Of a stretch of 48,737 nucleotides of DNA, positions 6,920 to 48,737 are shown piece by piece; the stretch's first letter is position 1, and each line of letters starts with the position of its first letter. The DNA is from Desulfococcaceae bacterium HSG8. Its GTDB lineage: Bacteria > Desulfobacterota > Desulfobacteria > Desulfobacterales > 4be13. Location of the stretch: the NCBI GenBank assembly GCA_030378015.1, contig JAUCGG010000014.1:1-48737 (forward strand), written 5' to 3'. The notes below the pieces were generated by a model. That model saw only the letters and a program-made list of their open reading frames with translations. It made no database searches and had not been told where the DNA came from. Position numbers and translations under genes: made by a program.

Positions 6920-7148
6920 CTGATTATAACGGATTTTGGGGATGGTATTTTTTGTCCCGGAGGGACATCTGACAATAGCCCGGCAATTCATTGCCGGGTA
7001 GAGATTCCGGATCATCACGTCCCGGAGGGACGACTGAAAAGCTTTCAGTCGTCCCTCCGGGACTGAAAAAACGGGGACACCCGGCAATAAATTGCCGGGC
7101 TATTTTCAGTCGTCCCTCCGGGACTGCTCCCCAAGTTGTAAATGCGCC
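6920..7148. mobile_element. Palindromic element, family E copy 1
   Basis: Begins CTGATTATAACGGATTTTGG, almost the same end as family F, and finishes CCCCAAGTTGTAAATGCGCC. The interior is built of CCCGGCAATTTATTGCCGGG hairpins alternating with GTCCCTCCGGGAC hairpins. Copies at 44808-45041 (inverted) and 47720-47922. Confidence 0.8.
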
Positions 7149-8636: not shown

Positions 8637-8789
8637 TGCGCCTGCTACTTGACACAAGCAGTTTTCCTCTGGTTTGTTGCCGGAAGCGACAAACTGAGCG
8701 TAAAAGCCAGGGAGCTTATCGAGGATTTTGACAATGAGCTTGTCCTGAGCGTGGCGAGCCTGTGGGAGATGGCAATCAAGGTGATGTGA
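8636..8789 (+). pseudogene. VapC-type PIN toxin, frameshifted and cut by a group II intron
   Basis: Starts MRLLLDTS with the first catalytic Asp. A one-base shift near 8658 is needed to continue as VFLWFVAGSDKLSVKARELI, then LVLSVASLWEMAIKV with the conserved Glu. At the AIKV position the sequence switches to group II intron sequence (8781 onward) and terminates at TGA 8787. The C-terminal half of the PIN domain, with the other acidic residues, is absent. The gene cannot make an active RNase, leaving the antitoxin orphaned. Confidence 0.8.
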
Positions 8790-9598
8790 ATCACTGCAGG
8801 ATCGTGAGTTAAGACAGGCTGAAGGTGCTGTTAAGCCTGAACCGAAAAGGTGAGCGGCCAGGTTCGGGGGCTGATGTTTCCTCCGACGCAGATGTTGCGC
8901 CGTCGGTCTGCGGGCGGAGCCTGAGTCGTCCGAAAGGTACTTATGCGGAACGTGGCAAGCCCGATTATCTCCGTGAAGGCGGAAACCGAACCGCAAGGCG
9001 ACAGATAAGCGGGCATGGGATTTCGGAGAAAGCGGATGCCGTGCTGTAATCGTGCGGATACGGGCTGAATTTGACGGAACAGTTAAAACGACATTGCCCG
9101 GCCTGAAAAGGAGCAGACTTCCGAGCGGTCTTTCATCACGAGATAGCTGAAGAACAGTGTATAAACAGGAGTTCGCAGATCGGAGCCGGTTCTGAATGCC
9201 GGCGGCGCGAGCCTGCGTTTCGTCAGAAACGTACACTGCCTGACGGTGCGTATCGTGAAGGTTCTGAGGGAAAGGAGAAATTCTGACTCGTCCGATTTGC
9301 GGAAAGCCTTGCCGCAAATGCGGATAACTGAAGACCGGAAGCTGAGGAAAATGAAAATGCTTTAAATTCAAGTCCTTCTGCGGAATTCTGAACCGTGCGG
9401 AGATTCGAGCCGCCGGGGGCGGAAAAACGGAAGAAAGGCGGACTGACGGAAAATAAACAGGTGTCCTCAGTTAATGACCGGATGCTGACGAACCGGATCT
9501 CGCAAGAGGTCTCAGAGAGGCCTGAGCCGGATGTGGGGAAACTCACAAGTCCGGTTCTCAGGGGGCTTAGGGATGGCAACATCCCTTGGCTACCCGAC
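8781..9598 (+). mobile_element. ORF-less group II intron fragment (5' end missing)
   Basis: About 190 bp at the start is nearly identical to 16405-16600 (GTGAATCACTRCAGGATCGTGA onward), which is domain I-type sequence. Domain V is at 9524-9557 (GAGCCGG stem, GGAAAC loop, CCGGTTC). Domain VI follows, ending TACCCGAC at 9598. The middle holds no reverse transcriptase gene. The 5' end is lost where it abuts vapC. The base after the 3' end starts an AGGC motif that is the expected beginning of the xisHI cassette. Confidence 0.72.
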
Positions 9599-9625
9599 AG
9601 GCACAGAGGAAAATATTCGATAACG

Positions 9626-10071
9626 ATGTCACGAAAAGACACCTATCACGATGTTGTGAAAGAGACACTTATAAAGGATGGACGGTCACCCACGATCCGT
9701 ACATATTCAGAACCGACCTCAGAACCGACCCCAGACTGATAGCGGATCTGGGAGCGGAGAGACTGATAGCCGCCGAACGGAAGTATGAAAAAATTGTTGT
9801 CGAGATCAAAAATTTTCTTCGGACATCCCAAGTGGTTGACCTGGAGGAAGCCGTGGGGAAATACAGCATATATAACATCTTTCTCCGACAGCATGAGCCG
9901 GACAGGACATTGTGGCTGGCTGTTCCGCTCCATGCGTCCGAAAATATTCTCAGCCGGGAGGTGGGAAGGGTCACCCTTGAAGCAATGAGGATTCCTGTCA
10001 TTGTGTATTCGTTATCCGGGAAGGAGCCGCTGATATGGAAAATTCCGAAGAGTTTTACAGAGAATGTGTGA
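9626..10071 (+). pseudogene. xisH: XisH-family protein, frameshifted (cassette copy 1)
   Basis: From ATG 9626 the product begins MSRKDTYHDVVKETLIKDG, then needs a frame change at about 9680 to continue WTVTHDPYIF and on to DPRLIADLGAERLIAAE and KIVVEIKNF. The change is explained by loss of one GATG unit from the expected GATGGATGG. An extra RTDL duplication follows. The Asp and Glu-x-Lys of a PD-(D/E)XK nuclease-like core are kept. XisH was named from cyanobacterial fdxN-element excision. It overlaps xisI downstream. Unless the slip is reversible the protein is not made. Confidence 0.78.
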
Positions 10072-10388
10072 AGAGACTTCTGACATCATACGAGTCCTTG
10101 AGAACAAACGATTCGCATATCGAGCTTGTCTTTGACGACGAGCGGATGCGGTACATGGCTGTCTGGGTGGGATGGCAGAAACACAGGCGTATCCATCAGT
10201 GCGCTGTCCATATTGACATATGCGACGGGAATGTGGTCATTCAGTGGAACGACACGGAGGACATGCCTGATGAGGAACTGTCAGAAATGGGGATTCCGAA
10301 ATCACATATACATTCGGAGATCATTCCTCCCGAAGCCCGGCTGCGTTCAGAAGAAAATACATACGACACGGAATCGCTGGTCACATAG
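10035..10388 (+). CDS. xisI: XisI-family protein (cassette copy 1)
   Basis: 117 residues with the XisI layout: N-terminal helix (YRECVKRLLTSYESL), then a beta-rich body with YMAVWVGWQKHRRIHQCAVH, the DGNVVIQWNDTEDM strand-turn and MGIPKSHI near the end. Homologue of the protein at 15611-15946. The start lies inside the end of xisH (37-nt overlap), as is normal for the pair. The cassette's attC begins 8 nt beyond the stop codon. XisI is always found with XisH; the joint function outside cyanobacterial excision is not established. Confidence 0.85.
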   Translation: MENSEEFYRECVKRLLTSYESLRTNDSHIELVFDDERMRYMAVWVGWQKHRRIHQCAVHIDICDGNVVIQWNDTEDMPDEELSEMGIPKSHIHSEIIPPEARLRSEENTYDTESLVT

Positions 10389-10417: not shown

Positions 10418-11276
10418 GTGCAACATGAAGTCGCTGATTTGATTGTTGATTTCATTCCTCATTATGAGGAATGAAAGTTCAACCCGTCATGTTGCTGACG
10501 GTTTCTTACTCCGACATGCGTCGTTGGTAACGACGGGGTGTGAGAGCTCGGAGGACAATGCAGCCCTCATGCCGCAAGGCATGGGAGGGAAGACCGTGAG
10601 GAATTCCCAATTCTGGCAGCATCGCAAGCCGGAGGGGAACTGAGAAGGACGATATGCGTAACATATGTGAATCGCCGTGTTTCGGCAGGCTCAACAACCA
10701 TAAGCGTCGTGAACGACAACAGGCTGAAGATGCTGATAAGCCTGAACCAGAAGGTGAGGGGTATGGTCAGTGCGCTCCGCTTTCGCACTGCGCAGCCGAT
10801 GATTCCCCCGGTGTATAGGCGGGCGCTGAGTCGTCACAGTCAGATCATGCGGAACATGGTAAGCCCGTATCTCTCCTCATTGTAATAAGAGGCAGAAGCC
10901 GCAAGGCGTACCGAAGGGGGTGCGGGTAAATGATGTCGGAGGAAGCGAATGCCGCATTGTAACGATGCGGATAGCGGTTCATGCCGTGACCCGAAAGGGT
11001 GCAGACTTCCGACAGGCGGCGGATCACGGGAAAGACGAGGAAAAGTTTTACCGCAGGCAGCACGGACAGACACCGGGCCTCCGGGCCGACAGGTGACGGC
11101 ACTGCGGACGGTCAACCGTAAGCTGAGTAAGAATCCGTACCGTGAAGTCGGCGGAGAAGGTTTTCCGCCGGCGGGTGCTTCACGGCGCCTTATTGTTGCC
11201 TGAGCCGTATGCGGGGAAACTTGCTCGTGCGGTTCTTAGGGGACGGGGGTGTGGTAACACCCCCCTGTTACCCGAC
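10418..11276 (+). mobile_element. ORF-less group II intron, nearly full length
   Basis: Starts GTGCAACATGAAGTCGC, related to the GTGCGAYACGAAGTYGC start of the other copies (consensus GTGYG). Domain I-type sequence includes GAGAAGGACGATATGCGTAA and the CGCCGTGTTTCGGCAGG stem-loop. Domain V is at 11202-11238 (GAGCCGT stem, GGGGAAAC, GCGGTTC). The domain VI hairpin ends TTACCCGAC at 11276; 11278 is an alternative end. There is no open frame for a reverse transcriptase, so it would need help in trans to move. Confidence 0.72.
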
Positions 11277-11340
11277 ACAGGCTACGGGTTCCCGGACGGT
11301 GAGGTCTTTTTTTGCCGCCTGCCGCTTAACTGAATATTAA

Positions 11341-11799
11341 ATGGAAAAAATGATAGAAATTAAGGAAATCTCTCCAGACTTGGTTCCTCAAAAACTGTTA
11401 CTAGAAGCGGATCCATCAATTGAACGAGTAAATCAATATTTGGAAGGCTCATTATGTTATGTGGCTGTAATCCGGAAAGAAATTGTTGGAGTCTGTGTTT
11501 TAAACCCCATAGACAAAAACAGAATTGAGTTATTCAATATCGCTGTCTTACCGGAAAACCACAAATCAGGTATTGGGTCACAATTACTCCAATTTGTTCT
11601 GGACAGCGTTAGAGAGAAAAAATTTGAATCAGTGGAATTAGGAACTGGTACGTTTGGTTATCAATTGGCATTTTATCAACGTTTTGGATTTCGAGTGGAC
11701 TCAATACTCAAAGACCATTTTATCAACAATTATGATGAACCAATTTTTGAAAATGAAATCCAACTTAAAGACATGTTACGGCTTATTCTGAAGCTGTGA
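11341..11799 (+). CDS. GNAT family N-acetyltransferase (gene cassette)
   Basis: 152 residues with the GNAT core: beta strands CYVAVIRKEIVGVCVL and RIELFNIAVLPE, the acetyl-CoA pyrophosphate loop HKSGIGSQLLQ at about residues 74-84, and the YQLAFYQRFGFR signature near the C-terminal third. The substrate is unknown. Start: ATG 11341 lies inside the cassette's first bases (TTAAATGG), and an ATG three codons later is possible; no strong ribosome-binding site is seen. The gene fills its cassette, ending just before attC 11808-11880. It is clearly AT-richer than the housekeeping genes in the window, consistent with acquisition. Confidence 0.88.
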   Translation: MEKMIEIKEISPDLVPQKLLLEADPSIERVNQYLEGSLCYVAVIRKEIVGVCVLNPIDKNRIELFNIAVLPENHKSGIGSQLLQFVLDSVREKKFESVELGTGTFGYQLAFYQRFGFRVDSILKDHFINNYDEPIFENEIQLKDMLRLILKL

Positions 11800-13759: not shown

Positions 13760-13961
13760 CTGATTATAACGGATTTAGGGGAGCCTGATGGTGAGGGGTT
13801 AAGGGTTAAGTTTTAAGGGTTAAGGGTTAAGGGTTAAGGTCGAGGAGGGCTGAGGGCGGGTTTGGGGAACGGGGCCCGCCGAGCCTTGCCCCTTAACCTT
13901 AACCCTTACCCTTACCCTTAACCCTTAAAGCTTAAACCTCCCCTAAATTCGTTATAATCAG
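13760..13961. mobile_element. MITE family F copy 1 with telomere-like TTAAGGG interior
   Basis: Perfect-ended inverted repeats CTGATTATAACG...CGTTATAATCAG, flanked by an 8-bp direct duplication AATATTTT (13752-13759 and 13962-13969). The interior has tandem GGGTTAA heptamers on the left and inverted CCCTTAA heptamers on the right, so the whole element is one large cruciform. Nothing else is recognised in 13521-13751. Confidence 0.88.
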
Positions 13962-13981
13962 AATATTTTGTTTGTTTTTCA

Positions 13982-15206: not shown

Positions 15207-15644
15207 ATGCCCAGATACGATTTATATCATGAGGAAGTCAGGCATGCCCTTGAAAAAGACGGATGGAGTATCACAGCAGATCCTTTTGTCATCGAATACA
15301 AAGGGCTGCGTCTGTATGCCGACCTCGGGGCGGAAAAAGTGATTGCCGCCGAAAAAGAAAACCGTAAGATTGTCGTGGAAATAAAAGTGTTCGGAACCCC
15401 TTCGCCGGTCAGCGAACTGGAGAAGGCAATCGGTCAGTACGGTATCTACAGAACCCTGATCAGACGTGTCAGCCCCGAATATTCACTCTGGCTGGCTGCC
15501 CCCGACGATGTGTATGAGGATTTTTTCCTGCGTCCGGCCATCCGGGAAATAACCGCCGACCATTCGATCAGCATGCTTGTTTTCAATCCGGAGACCGAGG
15601 AGATTGTCAGATGGATAAATCAGGAAGATACAGAAATATTGTAA
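15207..15644 (+). CDS. xisH: XisH-family protein (cassette copy 2, intact)
   Basis: 145 residues, full family length. A PD-(D/E)XK nuclease-like core is visible: LYADLGAEKVIAAEK with Asp39 and IVVEIKVF with Glu58-x-Lys60, followed by the helix LEKAIGQYGIYRTLI. XisH is named from the cyanobacterial nitrogen-fixation element whose excision it controls; it occurs widely in filamentous and multicellular bacteria without that element, where its role is unknown. It overlaps xisI by 34 nt. The gene belongs to an attC-bounded cassette, so it moves as a unit with xisI. It differs clearly from the broken copy at 9626. Confidence 0.88.
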   Translation: MPRYDLYHEEVRHALEKDGWSITADPFVIEYKGLRLYADLGAEKVIAAEKENRKIVVEIKVFGTPSPVSELEKAIGQYGIYRTLIRRVSPEYSLWLAAPDDVYEDFFLRPAIREITADHSISMLVFNPETEEIVRWINQEDTEIL

Positions 15645-15946
15645 GGGATTTGCTGACACGTCATGCGGAGCATTTCCCGCACCACGGAGAGATAAGAACG
15701 CTTCCGGTCAGTGATGAGAAGAATGACAACTATCTGCTGATGGATATCGGCTGGGACAGGACAGGGCGTGTACACACAGTCGCATTCCATGTGCATATAA
15801 ACAATGAAAAAATATGGATTGAATGGGACGGCACCGAAAACGGCATCACAGACGAGCTGCTCGCCGCCGGTGTTCCAAGGGAAGACATCGTACTGGGTTT
15901 TTACCGTCCCGGACGACGGGCAATAACCGGTTTTGCCGTAGAGTGA
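15611..15946 (+). CDS. xisI: XisI-family protein (cassette copy 2)
   Basis: 111 residues. N-terminal helix (YRNIVRDLLTRHAEHF), then the beta-rich XisI body: YLLMDIGWDRTGRVHTVAFH, KIWIEWDGTENGI, and LAAGVPREDIVLGFY near the end. The start codon is inside the xisH 3' end, giving translational coupling. The pattern is shared with the copy at 10035. Role presumed as partner of XisH; no enzymatic motif is visible. Confidence 0.88.
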   Translation: MDKSGRYRNIVRDLLTRHAEHFPHHGEIRTLPVSDEKNDNYLLMDIGWDRTGRVHTVAFHVHINNEKIWIEWDGTENGITDELLAAGVPREDIVLGFYRPGRRAITGFAVE

Positions 15947-15974: not shown

Positions 15975-16146
15975 CTGATTATAACGGATTTAGGGGAGCC
16001 CTGTGAACGTGCCCGTAAACTTGGACTTGAACTCGGACCTGAACCTGAATCCCGGCGTGAACACTCATCTGAGATCGCGTCTGAGTTCATGTTCAGGTCC
16101 AAGTTTAAGTTTAAGTTTAAGGCTCCCCTAAATCCGTTATAATCAG
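15975..16146. mobile_element. MITE family F copy 2 with hexamer-repeat interior
   Basis: Ends CTGATTATAACGGATTTAGG and its complement, flanked by the 8-bp duplication AAAAGCGG (15967-15974 and 16147-16154). The interior carries period-6 repeats (ACTTGGACTTGAACTCGGAC on the left; inverted CAAGTTTAAGTTTAAG on the right), unrelated to the interior of copy 1. It inserted between the xisI stop and the cassette's attC. Confidence 0.88.
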
Positions 16147-16153
16147 AAAAGCG

Positions 16154-16209
16154 GGCTAACCAGTTGCTGCACCGGACGCGAAAAGCGTGCGCCGGTGAGC
16201 TTTGGCGTT
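16154..16209 (+). other. attC of the xisHI-2 cassette, interrupted by a group II intron
   Basis: GGCTAAC at 16154-16160, left arm GCTGCACCGGACGCG, loop AAAA, right arm CGTGCGCCGGTGAGC, then GCGTT ending at 16209. The remaining RRRY of the core site (AAGT) is found on the far side of the intron at 16754. Confidence 0.8.
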
Positions 16210-16753
16210 GTGCGATACGAAGTTGCATAAGTATTTGTTACACTTGATATTTTCATGATGTAACCGAATGTTCTGCCATTCGTACCCTACCCGCTGAATA
16301 AAGTGCGCGGGGACAAAAGTAGCCTCATCCGAGGATGGTCGCTGAATCGTGAGAGGAAGCGGCGACTGCGAGCACCGATGCGGTCGGGAGCGAGGGTCGG
16401 GTGATATGGCTGACATATGTGAATCACTACAGGATCGTGAGATAAGACAGGCTAAAGGTGCTGACAGGCCTGAACCAAAACGGTGAGCGGCCAGGTTCGG
16501 AAGCTGACGTTTCTTCCGACGCTGATGTTGCGCCGTCGGTCTGTGGGCGGAGCCTGAGTCACTTTTAAGGTATTTATGCAGAACCTGGTAAGCCCGACTG
16601 TCTCCATGAATATGGAATCATTCCTGTCAGAGGATGAAGTTGAAAAACCGCGTCCCTCACGGGGCGTTTGAAAGGCTTGAGCCGTAAGTTTGGAAACTTA
16701 CACGAGCGGTTCTCAGGGGGCTTGGGGATGGCAACATCCCCCGGCTACCCGAC
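16210..16753 (+). mobile_element. Compact ORF-less group II intron inserted within attC
   Basis: 544 nt from GTGCGATACGAAGTTGC to GGCTACCCGAC. Domain V is at 16679-16712 (GAGCCGTAAG, GGAAAC, GAGCGGTTC) and domain VI at 16714-16753 (GGGGATGGCAACATCCCC hairpin). Domain I-type sequence at 16405-16600 is nearly identical to 8790-8980. Removing it joins GCGTT to AAGT, recreating a GTTRRRY core that matches the next cassette's R''. It cannot encode a maturase. Confidence 0.8.
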
Positions 16754-17277: not shown

Positions 17278-17337
17278 ACTTAACAATTTGCTGCACGGGA
17301 GCGCAAAAAGCCGCGCCCCGTGAGCAACACGTTATGC
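17278..17337 (+). other. Complete attC site of the CGGC cassette
   Basis: R'' ACTTAAC (17278-17284), arm GCTGCACGGGAGCGC, loop AAAA, arm GCCGCGCCCCGTGAGCA, R' GTTATGC (17331-17337). It is 60 bp, the size of typical short attC sites. R'' is the exact complement of GTT+AAGT at the cassette start. Confidence 0.85.
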
Positions 17338-17383
17338 AGCCTAAACGATTTTTTAACCATCAAGTTTTAAGGACAATTCAACT

Positions 17384-17560
17384 TTGGTAAAACGATATCT
17401 TGAATATCTAAATGAAAGGGATTTACTTCAATGCAATACTGTTCTCTTTACCCGTGAATCAATTATTGATTTTGCAAGAAAATTTGATCCACAGCCTTTC
17501 CACATAAATGAAAAACTTGCTGAAGAATCAATTTTCGGAGGTTTAATCGCAAGCCGGATG
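17384..17560 (+). pseudogene. MaoC-like acyl dehydratase, N-terminal fragment
   Basis: From TTG 17384 (AAGGAC upstream) the product reads MVKRYLEYLNERDLLQ, then the MaoC/hot-dog signature FARKFDPQPFHINEKLAEES and FGGLIAS. The catalytic Asp and His of the hydratase motif (DPQPFH) are present. At about 17550 it runs into group II intron sequence (GCAAGCCGGATGGGAGCTAA compared with 10624-10643), so roughly half of the fold is lost and the frame continues into intron DNA until 17662. A gene cassette cargo destroyed by intron-related recombination. Confidence 0.72.
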
Positions 17561-17690
17561 GGAGCTAAGAAGGACGATATGCGTAACATATGTGAACCGC
17601 CGTGTTTCGGCAGGCTCAACAACCATAATCGTCGTGAACGCACGACAAGCCAAAGATGCTGACAGGCTTGAACCAAAAGGTGAGGGGCAA
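17549..17690 (+). mobile_element. Group II intron domain I fragment
   Basis: Matches 10623-10760 almost base for base, including GAAGGACGATATGCGTAACA and the GCCGTGTTTCGGCAGG hairpin, then stops at GGTGAGGGGCA. No domain V is attached. Confidence 0.7.
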
Positions 17691-17695
17691 TTTTT

Positions 17696-17725
17696 GCTGT
17701 GCCCGACAGGGCATGGCCGTTATAT
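17696..17725 (+). other. attC right-half remnant before the EF-hand gene
   Basis: A GCCCGACAGGGCATGGCC arm is followed by a GTTATAT core box (17719-17725). It would mark the start of the cassette carrying the lipoprotein. The left half is replaced by intron sequence. Confidence 0.45.
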
Positions 17726-17779
17726 GGTCTATTGTTGCTGAACAAGTTAGAAAACATTTTAAATGAAAAGGAGGTTGCT

Positions 17780-18061
17780 ATGCGAGGAATTATTATTTTT
17801 ATCGGATTGAGTCTTGTTCTTTTTTCGTACATCGGTTGTGTCCATCATACACAGGATATTGAGAAACATGATTTTAGCGGGCACTTCGGGGATATAGATA
17901 CGGATGGCGATGAGTCAGTTAACTGGGAGGAGTTTAAAAAATATTTTTCCCATGCTGAAAAAAAAGTTTTTATCAAAGCTGATAGTAATGGTGATGAACT
18001 GATAGACCATGATGAATGGCATAAATATAAAGAAAAATATGGATATGGCCATAAAGAATAA
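17780..18061 (+). CDS. Small EF-hand lipoprotein
   Basis: 93 residues. A type II signal peptide (MRGIIIFIGLSLVLF) ends in YIGC with the lipidated Cys20. Two EF-hand loops follow: Asp40-Glu51 (DTDGDESVNWEE) and Asp68-Glu79 (DSNGDELIDHDE), both with good calcium-ligand spacing. AAAAGGAGG at 17766-17774 sits well for ATG 17780. Likely a membrane-anchored calcium-binding protein of the periplasm; partners unknown. The stop codon touches a group II intron 3' tail (CTACCCGAC) and the gene is preceded by an intron 5' fragment, so it sits inside a dismembered intron/cassette junction. Confidence 0.83.
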   Translation: MRGIIIFIGLSLVLFSYIGCVHHTQDIEKHDFSGHFGDIDTDGDESVNWEEFKKYFSHAEKKVFIKADSNGDELIDHDEWHKYKEKYGYGHKE

Positions 18062-18125
18062 AGCTACCCGACACAGGCGAACTGCGCTATTGCTTCGTTC
18101 ACCAGCCGCTTAACTTAATATTATT
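18062..18125 (+). other. Group II intron 3' tail and cassette-end remnant
   Basis: GCTACCCGACACAGGC matches the domain VI tail and 3' exon of the other copies (compare 11268-11282). Then CCAGCCGCTTAACTTAATAT follows, which resembles 11316-11336 and contains an R''-like GCTTAAC. A new intron 5' end begins at 18126. Confidence 0.55.
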
Positions 18126-18661
18126 GTGCGACACGAAGTCGCATTATTTAGTGTATTCAGTATGTTAATAACACTTGAATACCTGGTATGTTCCTACCAG
18201 TCCCTACGCGGGCGTACTTGCCACGCGATGTGTGGTCGGTGCGAAGCCCCGTGGACAATGTACCGAACCGGGTTCGAATGGTGACAGGAGAACCCCTCGG
18301 GGAATCCTCCCCCGTTAAGGGCAGGAACGGGTAACATCGTGAAATCAGATGAATATTCGCAATCGCCGTCAATGAGCGAAGACCTACGAGGGTTAACAGG
18401 TCGGAGGCCGCTTCCCTGTGTTTGCGGCATGCGGTCAGATTGCAGGTCTTATAACTGCCTGCACAGAACTGTTGCACCGCCGGCGTAGAGAATGCACCTG
18501 AATTACCCGTCGGATGAACAATGCGGAACGTGGAAACCCGGTCCCTTCGCCCGTCAGGGATGTTGTGCCACCGGCGCAGGGGTGAGACCTGACCTGTCCG
18601 GAAGGTATTTATGCGGAACACGGAAACCCCGTACACCTCCCTGAAGTCGGAGGAAAGGTGC
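18126..18661 (+). mobile_element. Group II intron 5' fragment (no domain V)
   Basis: Starts GTGCGACACGAAGTCGC. Two partial duplications of the ATGCGGAACGTGGAAACCCG-type domain I segment are seen (18519-18545 and 18611-18637). No domain V or VI occurs before the next gene at 18672, so only the 5' part remains. Confidence 0.6.
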
Positions 18662-18671
18662 GAAAGGAAAA

Positions 18672-19555: not shown

Positions 19556-19690
19556 GTGCGGCATGAAGTTGCATAAATATTTGTTAATATTGATTTAATA
19601 TCATTAATTAACCCGATATTCTGCTATCCTGCCGGGACGTGCATCAGAAGTAATTCTTTCGTGCGAAGCTTCCGGGACAACGAAACCTGC
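19556..19690 (+). mobile_element. Group II intron 5'-end fragment
   Basis: GTGCGGCATGAAGTTGCATA and the following AT-rich stretch align with the first 60 nt of the intron at 16210. The remainder is absent. It sits at the right end of the last attC, as the other copies do. Confidence 0.55.
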
Positions 19691-19703
19691 GGGGCAACAG
19701 CCC

Positions 19704-19826
19704 ATATGCATCAAGCTAAAATTTTAACATGCTGATTTTATTAACTCCGACTGAACGGCAGCCGAAACGCAGAACCTTTATTTTCGGGGGTTCCGGAATC
19801 ATAAAAATCCTTAGTTTGATGCATAT
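19704..19826. mobile_element. Short MITE with 13-bp target duplication
   Basis: 123 bp with ends ATATGCATCAAGCTAA and TTAGTTTGATGCATAT. Flanked on both sides by GGGGCAACAGCCC (19691-19703 and 19827-19839), which reads as a direct target duplication. No coding capacity. 19840-19972 holds a CAAGTTGTAAATGCG motif shared with family E ends and otherwise nothing recognised. Confidence 0.72.
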
Positions 19827-19972
19827 GGGGCAACAGCCCCCAAGTTGTAAATGCGTTCGAACACCAATTCTGTTCCAGAGAATTTTTCCTTCACTCTGCG
19901 GAAAATCATCAGCTTCATTTGTCTGAAATTAAATATTTTTCATGTATCACTTTTGACATAAAAGGTTCTCCG

Positions 19973-44807: not shown

Positions 44808-45041
44808 GGCGCATTTACAACTTGGGGAGCCAGTCCCGAAGGGACGACTGAAAATAAGCCCGGCAATTTATTGCCGGGGCGGATGTCCCCGTTTTTCAGT
44901 CCCGTAGGGACGACTGAAAAGCTTTTCAGCCGTCCCTGCGGGACCTGATAATCCGGGGGACCTCACCCGGCAATGAATTGCCGGGCTGTTTTCAGAAGTC
45001 CCTCCGGGACTGAAAGTTACTCCCCCAACTTACCCGAAAAC
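44808..45041. mobile_element. Palindromic element, family E (reverse orientation)
   Basis: Begins GGCGCATTTACAACTTGGGG, the reverse complement of the right end of copy 1, then runs through CCCGGCAATTTATTGCCGGG and GTCCCTCCGGGAC hairpins. The other end is CTCCCCCAACTTACCCG rather than the GATTATAACGG end. Confidence 0.75.
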
Positions 45042-47719: not shown

Positions 47720-47922
47720 CTGATTATAACGGATTTTGGGGATGGTATTTTTTGTCCCGGAGGGACATCTGAAAACAGCCCGGCAATTCATTGCCGGGTG
47801 AGTATTCCGGATCATTCAGTCCCTCCGGGACTGAAAAAAAAACGGGGGATATCCGCCCCGGCAATAAATTGCCGGGCTATTTTCAGTCGTCCCTCCGGGA
47901 CTCCCCCAAGTTGTAAATGCGC
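47720..47922. mobile_element. Palindromic element, family E copy 3
   Basis: CTGATTATAACGGATTTTGG at the left and CCCCCAAGTTGTAAATGCGC at the right, with two CCCGGCAAT...ATTGCCGGG hairpins inside. Nearly identical to 6920-7148. Confidence 0.8.
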
Positions 47923-48449: not shown

Positions 48450-48737
48450 GCTCCGCGACGCATCGGGTCGGAGGAGGGAGAAGAAGAATTATCTCCCCCC
48501 GTCCGCCCACAGAACCGTGCGTACGGGCCCGTACACGGCTCCTCATGTTACCTTTATCCATTTCTTCAGGTCGAAACCAATGCGCGTGTTTTTCATCTGA
48601 TCTGATTTTCAGTCCCAGTTCCTTAATGAAGTATCGGTTCGGGTAAGCCAGACCTACCGCAAAGGTGTGGGATAATGCCCAGCATCCTTTGTTTGAATAG
48701 ACCGTTTTGCCTGCATGTCCGCGCGATATTCCGCGCT
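48450..48737 (-). mobile_element. Group II intron 3' end, minus strand, runs off the window
   Basis: On the minus strand domain V is at 48511-48542 (GAGCCGTG stem, GGGCCC centre, CACGGTTCT), followed by a domain VI-like GGGGGGAGATAATTC/CTCCCTCCTCC hairpin and a CCGACCCGAT end near 48450. Upstream (48553-48737) the minus strand reads WALSHTFAVGLAYPNRYF and LGLKIRSDEKHAHWF, which could be the tail of an intron-encoded maturase, but no stop fits cleanly before domain V. Different subtype from the array introns. Confidence 0.6.

Follow-up and report, generated by a model that had tools for sequence, protein, structure and literature searches.

Homing into integron attC sites has so far been described almost only for group II introns of class IIC, which recognise the folded bottom strand of the site. 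These IIC-attC introns, defined here as in PMC7923331, insert into the attC bottom strand at R'' (TTGT/T), in an orientation opposite to that of the cassettes, and use an IBS1 of 3-4 bp while IBS2 is unused (PMC7923331). The reverse transcriptases (RTs) of class C introns lack an endonuclease domain (PMC4424553). The nearest precedent for an intron in cassette orientation is UHB.I2 (CL1/IIB1) of the Tanatar-5 soda-lake array, located directly after an attC; it is a single copy with an ORF, has the ends UUGCG..GU, lacks an EBS3 bulge and is flanked by poorly conserved exons (PMC7923331). A CL1 intron within the cassette array of the Shewanella putrefaciens 200 integron appears, in the part of the source drawn on here, as a mention only, which covers neither its position relative to attC nor ORF-less forms nor its EBS (PMC9229058). 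Outside integrons, the closest likeness is found in the TeI3/TeI4 introns of T. elongatus, where few RT-bearing introns accompany many ORF-less copies with shared breakpoints, families differ in EBS1/2 and introns lie inside introns; these also supply the closest solved RT (6me0), but their sites are not described as attC (PMC2882425).

The window analysed here, 48,737 nucleotides of a contig of Desulfococcaceae bacterium HSG8, contains a 544-nt element that is very probably a decayed ORF-less member of a IIB (CL1) intron family specialised for attC sites. The family shares with UHB.I2 its class, its cassette orientation and its place at attC, but differs in that its copies are numerous and have normal ends, that it occupies three fixed attC positions with matched EBS/IBS pairs, and that it includes ORF-less forms. 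It has its attC targets in common with IIC-attC introns such as S.ma.I2 (PMC7923331, PMC8876359), which differ in class, in the strand, site and orientation used, and in being guided by the hairpin rather than by EBS2. Mobility in trans is experimental in T. elongatus (PMC2882425), whereas here it is inferred. An attC-homing IIB intron family is apparently undescribed in the open-access literature searched, and it is more notable than the 544-nt copy through which it came to light.

A protein-less group II intron in the R' box of an attC site

The intron and the attC sequences that define its position are as follows.

16154-16209, + strand: attC upstream of the 544-nt intron, forming its 5' exon (R'', arms and the first part of R', GTT)
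16210-16753, + strand: internally deleted ORF-less group II intron with ends GTGCG...CCCGAC, IIB/CL1 type, matching RF02012 and RF00029
16754-16757, + strand: AAGT, the remainder of R' (GTT+AAGT) and start of the CGGC-domain cassette, read from the sequence
17278-17337, + strand: intact attC ending the CGGC-domain cassette, with R'' ACTTAAC pairing with GTTAAGT

The element at 16210-16753 is confirmed as a genuine protein-less group II intron placed exactly in an integron attC. It matches, on the + strand, the Rfam families RF02012 (D1-D4) at 16264-16391 with 70.6 bits (gathering 34) and RF00029 (D5/D6) at 16677-16753 with 41 bits, just above the gathering value of 40, and it combines D5/D6 and D1 structure with GUGYG...AY ends. 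It holds no ORF of note, the longest open frame being 46 aa. Read directly, the junctions pass from ...GGCGTT on the 5' side through GTGCGATACGAAG...GGCTACCCGAC to AAGTGTCG: GTGCG begins at 16210 directly after GCGTT, and AAGT comes after CCCGAC, the last base of which is 16753. The insertion point thus lies in the R' box at GCGTT|AAGT. With the intron removed, the joined flanks read GTTAAGT and are exactly complementary to ACTTAAC (17278-17284), which is the R'' at the end of the CGGC-domain cassette that carries the intron in its head. The predicted spliced flank product is GCGTTAAGT, and splicing of the cassette transcript would thus restore attC. The sequence-only reading, which had called an ORF-less group II intron inserted exactly in an attC core with these ends and with this complement in the next R'', is upheld on each of these points.

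The upstream attC displays R'' GGCTAAC (16154-16160) and the L''/L' arms GCTGCACCGG / CCGGTGAGC with one extra-helical G, so that the pair GGCTAAC...GTTAAGT presents the R'' (RYYYAAC) and R' (GTTRRRY) consensus, complementary arms and the extra-helical base of an attC. For its bottom strand the folding energy is -12.6 kcal/mol (z -1.8), a value that is weak by itself and was left out as proof. The integron bases TTRRRY belong to the downstream cassette, and the intron therefore lies inside the head of the CGGC cassette, two bases after the crossover. No IntI gene was found within the window; a complete IntI-like gene is located on contig C309 of the same genome (416 bits against a cut-off of 265), and a pattern search of the IntI contigs C309 and C256 found no intron ends or attC. 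An attC variant in which R' is ATT after CCGCTTAACTNAATA occurs at 11276-11345 and 18072-18126 of the window and on contig C323, at no fewer than three cassette junctions.

Domain structure and probable decay of the 544-nt copy

The structural elements identified in the 544-nt intron are listed below.

16210-16595, + strand: domain I, including the RF02012 segment 16264-16391 and running to GGTAAGCCC; boundary approximate
16439-16445, + strand: EBS2 GAGATAA, for which the exon GAGCTTT is a poor match and TTATCTC a perfect one
16497-16519, + strand: EBS1 hairpin with loop CTGACGTTT; EBS1 is GACGT at 16506-16510
16614-16618, + strand: deletion junction, with GAA microhomology at 16615-16617
16679-16712, + strand: domain V, AGC triad retained
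16716-16750, + strand: domain VI hairpin, with the bulged branch-point A at 16747

Two copies on contig C323 are closely related to this intron: i3 is 97% identical over nt 1-408, with 12 substitutions in the first half, and i1 is 99.3% identical over nt 406-544. Relative to both, everything between ATATG and GAATCATTCC is gone, with the 3-nt GAA at the join. Folding and comparison indicate that the loss starts midway through domain II, removing its 3' strand, takes out the whole of domain III and extends over most of domain IV. The 544-nt copy therefore falls short of a full set of six domains, which neighbouring intron B has. The fold and class check proposed earlier accordingly gave a divided answer: D1, D5 and D6 were found, but D3 and most of D2 and D4 were not, and the class is IIB, not IIC. 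In domain V, A.A and A.G are mispaired beneath the bulge, and the upper stem has two further mispairs. The same mispairs are found in i1, at another site, and this domain V may for that reason still work.

EBS1 GACGT pairs with the exon GCGTT at 5/5 positions (2 G-U), while EBS2 matches the present exon at 4/6 positions at best. A search of the same genome revealed no second copy with the 544-nt junction. These sequence features make it most likely that the 544-nt copy is a decayed relic of an ORF-less parent of ~1 kb, from which deletion at the GAA microhomology would have removed ~0.5 kb, covering most of DII, DIII and DIV, and that it probably no longer splices or moves efficiently. The parent may be of the kind retained at 8784-9598 of the window (see below).

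Assignment of the family to class IIB (CL1)

In the draft genome (6.0 Mb, 81.5% complete), domain V/VI is matched 32 times and a maturase six times. Three introns of the 544-nt type lie on contig C323, namely the 5' part of i3, a complete i2 lying between i3 and i1, and the 3' part of i1. Intron i2 spans 2362 nt, is inserted as GTCGTT|...|AAAT in a cassette whose R'' is ATTTAAC, and encodes a 570-aa protein with RVT_N, RVT_1, GIIM and HNH domains; a full-length maturase-bearing relative, for which a search had been proposed, is thus present in the same genome. The best solved relative of the i2 RT is PDB 6me0_C (E=3e-168, HNH covered), while GsI-IIC reaches only 3e-29. Entry 6me0 represents the T. 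elongatus TeI4h intron with its maturase.

Sequence comparison identifies the attC intron family as class IIB (CL1), an assignment that for the 544-nt copy, itself without an RT, rests on its relatives. Domain I of the 544-nt copy is 78% identical to that of its relatives; the C323 RT supplies the RVT_N, RT, maturase X and HNH domains of a CL1-type parent; and both EBS1 and EBS2 pair with the 5' exon, EBS2 doing so at 6/6 positions in i2, i3 and C40. Class IIC is excluded for the family because class C RTs have no endonuclease, while the i2 RT contains HNH and is far nearer to 6me0 than to GsI-IIC.

Insertion at three attC positions and pairing with the exon

A search for 5' ends in the same genome gave 24 places, whose flanks were read, as were those in four genomes of the same family and in G271 (same order). 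Many such introns are present in this genome and in 4/4 of the related genomes searched, and they occupy three attC positions, in agreement with the earlier expectation of relatives at other attC sites. Two are located in R', after CGTT or one base earlier (CGT), and after GTTATG or similar. The third is in L'', after AACCCGNCRNTGNAGCGG (AGCGG|), where the 3' exon ACGG.../ACAGG... continues the attC; in the L'' copies B, L211, L215 and L222 both attC halves flank the intron. A YAAY box or attC left arm stands at the right spacing in 23/23 L''-type 5' exons and in 0/22 CL1 introns of other genomes, the surrounding DNA of inspected CL1 relatives from other genomes being without attC. This spacing, together with the like insertion of the 2362-nt relative, excludes a chance placement. 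A search of 389 genomes of the class for CGTT followed by GTGCG... gave matches only in this genome and G271.

In most intact copies the EBS1 hairpin of domain I (stem 7 bp, loop 9 nt) is found at the same place, and this one place serves every site type. EBS1 corresponds to loop positions 3-7, the pairing having been assigned by comparison and not from a solved structure. The EBS1/exon pairs are GACGT/GCGTT, AACGT/TCGTT, GCGAC/GTCGT, CATAA/TTATG, CCGCT/AGCGG, CCGGT/ACCGG, AGCGA/TCGTT, TGTAT/ATGTA and TATAA/TTATT. EBS1 covaries with the exon across these nine haplotypes, 43 of 45 own pairs matching against a shuffled mean of 23.2 (P=5e-6, a value that is somewhat flattering since the hairpin was chosen after the match was seen). 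Family members would retrohome into the attC top strand by EBS1/EBS2 pairing.

In a quick RT tree, the RTs of CGTT-type introns, G001 and ER2bin7 (L120) form one clade, while L''-type and GTTATG-type RTs are placed elsewhere on long branches, so that the subfamilies may not all be served by a single RT. The hypothesis that attC targeting arose only once was considered and is unsupported by this placement. The CL1 intron at L120 (61% RT identity) lies ~130 nt past an attC, not visibly inside one.

ORF-less copies and signs of recombination in the array

Further intron copies and fragments in the window are given here.

8784-9598, + strand: ORF-less CGTT-type intron, 3' part only (815 nt), with the RT N-terminal remnant region retained
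10418-11276, + strand: second ORF-less intron (B), 859 nt, in attC L'', as AACCCGGCGCTGCACCGG|intron|ACAGGCTACGGG
17565-17690, + strand: internal fragment of an L''-type intron fused into a cassette (match 17644-17688)
18062-18072, + strand: 11-nt 3' end of another intron (AGCTACCCGAC), with attC-like DNA after it
18126-18670, + strand: GTTATG-type intron (exon TTATT|), 5' half only, joined to an arginine-deiminase-like gene
19556-19762, + strand: another intron copy, 5' fragment only, interrupted by an inverted-repeat element

By sequence comparison, the copy at 8784-9598 is the kind of intron from which the 544-nt copy would derive. Intron B retains D2, D3, D5 and D6 and shares the loss of the same RT-gene portion with C25, L211, L218 and L222, the five copies coming from four genera and different attC sites; in coordinates of the full-length L''-type intron C384, the L''-type ORF-less breakpoints jump from about 624-656 to 2236. 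The CGTT-type copies A and i3 have a common RT deletion and are 93.6% identical. The ORF-less forms that spread retain D2 and D3; those of L'' and GTTATG sites measure about 800-860 nt, those of CGTT sites about 1 kb. Shared deletions thus characterise the L''-type copies and the CGTT-type pair A and i3, and not the 544-nt junction.

Common breakpoints at different sites mean that an ORF-less form multiplied after gene loss, and hence that an RT was used in trans, an argument made for T. elongatus (PMC2882425). By analogy, the present breakpoints make it probable that ORF-less members multiplied via RT in trans; they would be spliced and mobilised by the few RTs of full-length relatives. Copies could also multiply by intron-intron recombination or by cassette movement, and chimeric introns do exist, e.g. 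L223, with an L''-type 5' half and a GTTATG-type 3' half.

Several rearranged intron sequences were observed. The stretch 17334-18126 contains a cassette head with an internal intron fragment, an EF-hand gene and the last 11 nt of another intron, and looks like the product of repeated intron-intron recombination in the array. At 19690-19830, an inverted-repeat element (GCCCATATGCATCAAGCTAA...TTAGTTTGATGCATATGGGGC) interrupts domain I of an intron fragment. In L064 (C25, 24451-24830) and L063 (C82, 20611-20991), two intron 3' ends are separated by 300 nt, and the sequence that follows the first of them matches domain III of the introns (GCGG|ATAGCGG); these appear to be introns homed into introns (twintrons). 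A domain V/VI of a different group II type (ends ACCCGAT) is located at 48462-48543 on the - strand, and also on C106, C353 and C325.

Other elements in the window

Two palindromic MITE-like elements with ends CTGATTATAACGGATTTAGGGGAG are found at 13762-13966 and 15975-16148; they contain GGGTTAA-like or GTTCAG-like repeats and probably cause spurious miRNA-family matches. Two cassettes (9586-10388 and 15207-15946) each carry an XisH/XisI gene pair. Matches to Acido-Lenti-1 RNA at 6953-7125, 44832-45011 and 47753-47902 are close plus/minus, palindromic pairs.

Alternative explanations and arrival of the copy

That the element is an IIC-attC intron deprived of its ORF, a view suggested by the sequence-only comparison with IIC-attC introns, would agree with its attC core position and with IIC being the class usually tied to integrons (PMC7923331). 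This is extremely unlikely: the 544-nt intron occupies R' on the top strand in cassette orientation, opposite to the IIC-attC arrangement, family members use R' or L'' with both EBS1 and EBS2, and the RT of the relatives is CL1-like with HNH where a class C RT would have no endonuclease. An assembly artefact joining two intron copies is very unlikely too; C323 ends inside introns of the same type and the genome is a draft, but an overlap of only 3 nt at the junction would not suffice for an assembler to merge the copies, and the 12 substitutions separate the first half from i3.

The element had also been regarded as a compact mobile form. It would then be a functional minimal intron for which 544 nt suffice, and the C323 RT would still act in trans to splice and move it. 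It retains EBS1, a D6 that includes the branch A, and exact ends, and a recently active lineage is suggested by its 3' part, 99% identical to i1. We nevertheless consider such a form improbable, given the loss of D3 and most of D2 and D4, the mispaired D5, the misfit of EBS2 to the exon and a junction seen in this sole copy. Under the preferred explanation, a decayed member of the IIB family, it is quite possible, though we hold it tentatively, that the intron was carried in with the CGGC cassette by the integrase or arose here by recombination between intron copies. In the simplest form of this view it would first have entered another attC by homing and reached its present place later, with its cassette. 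The integrase crossover is G|TT, with the cut before TT and everything upstream of TT replaced. Intron and cassette can consequently move together, which would explain the misfit of EBS2 to the present upstream attC. EBS2 GAGATAA instead fits the attC type TTATCTC-N-GCGTT, found at five places in two sister genomes (0 in reversed-pattern controls), while recombination is suggested by chimeras such as L223. Against arrival by cassette, homing with a weak IBS2 is also possible, and the TTATCTC-N-GCGTT type was not found in the assembled genome of this organism.

Significance

On balance we favour the view that this bacterial family harbours a radiation of IIB (CL1) introns whose EBS1/EBS2 have been re-tooled for three attC positions on the cassette-coding strand, and which are mostly ORF-less parasites of a few RTs. 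Such introns would be spliced from cassette transcripts, restoring attC, would ride with integrase-moved cassettes and would reshape arrays by mutual recombination. What is new is another intron class at attC, on the other strand, with ordinary EBS pairing and at three positions, its ORF-less copies being present across genera. For an intron, attC is a good safe haven, being repeated, non-coding and spread by the integrase. An intron in a cassette head could move along with its cassette, and cassettes could be deleted or fused through pairs of introns. The family would add a second natural system, after T. elongatus, for testing how one RT drives many ORF-less introns.
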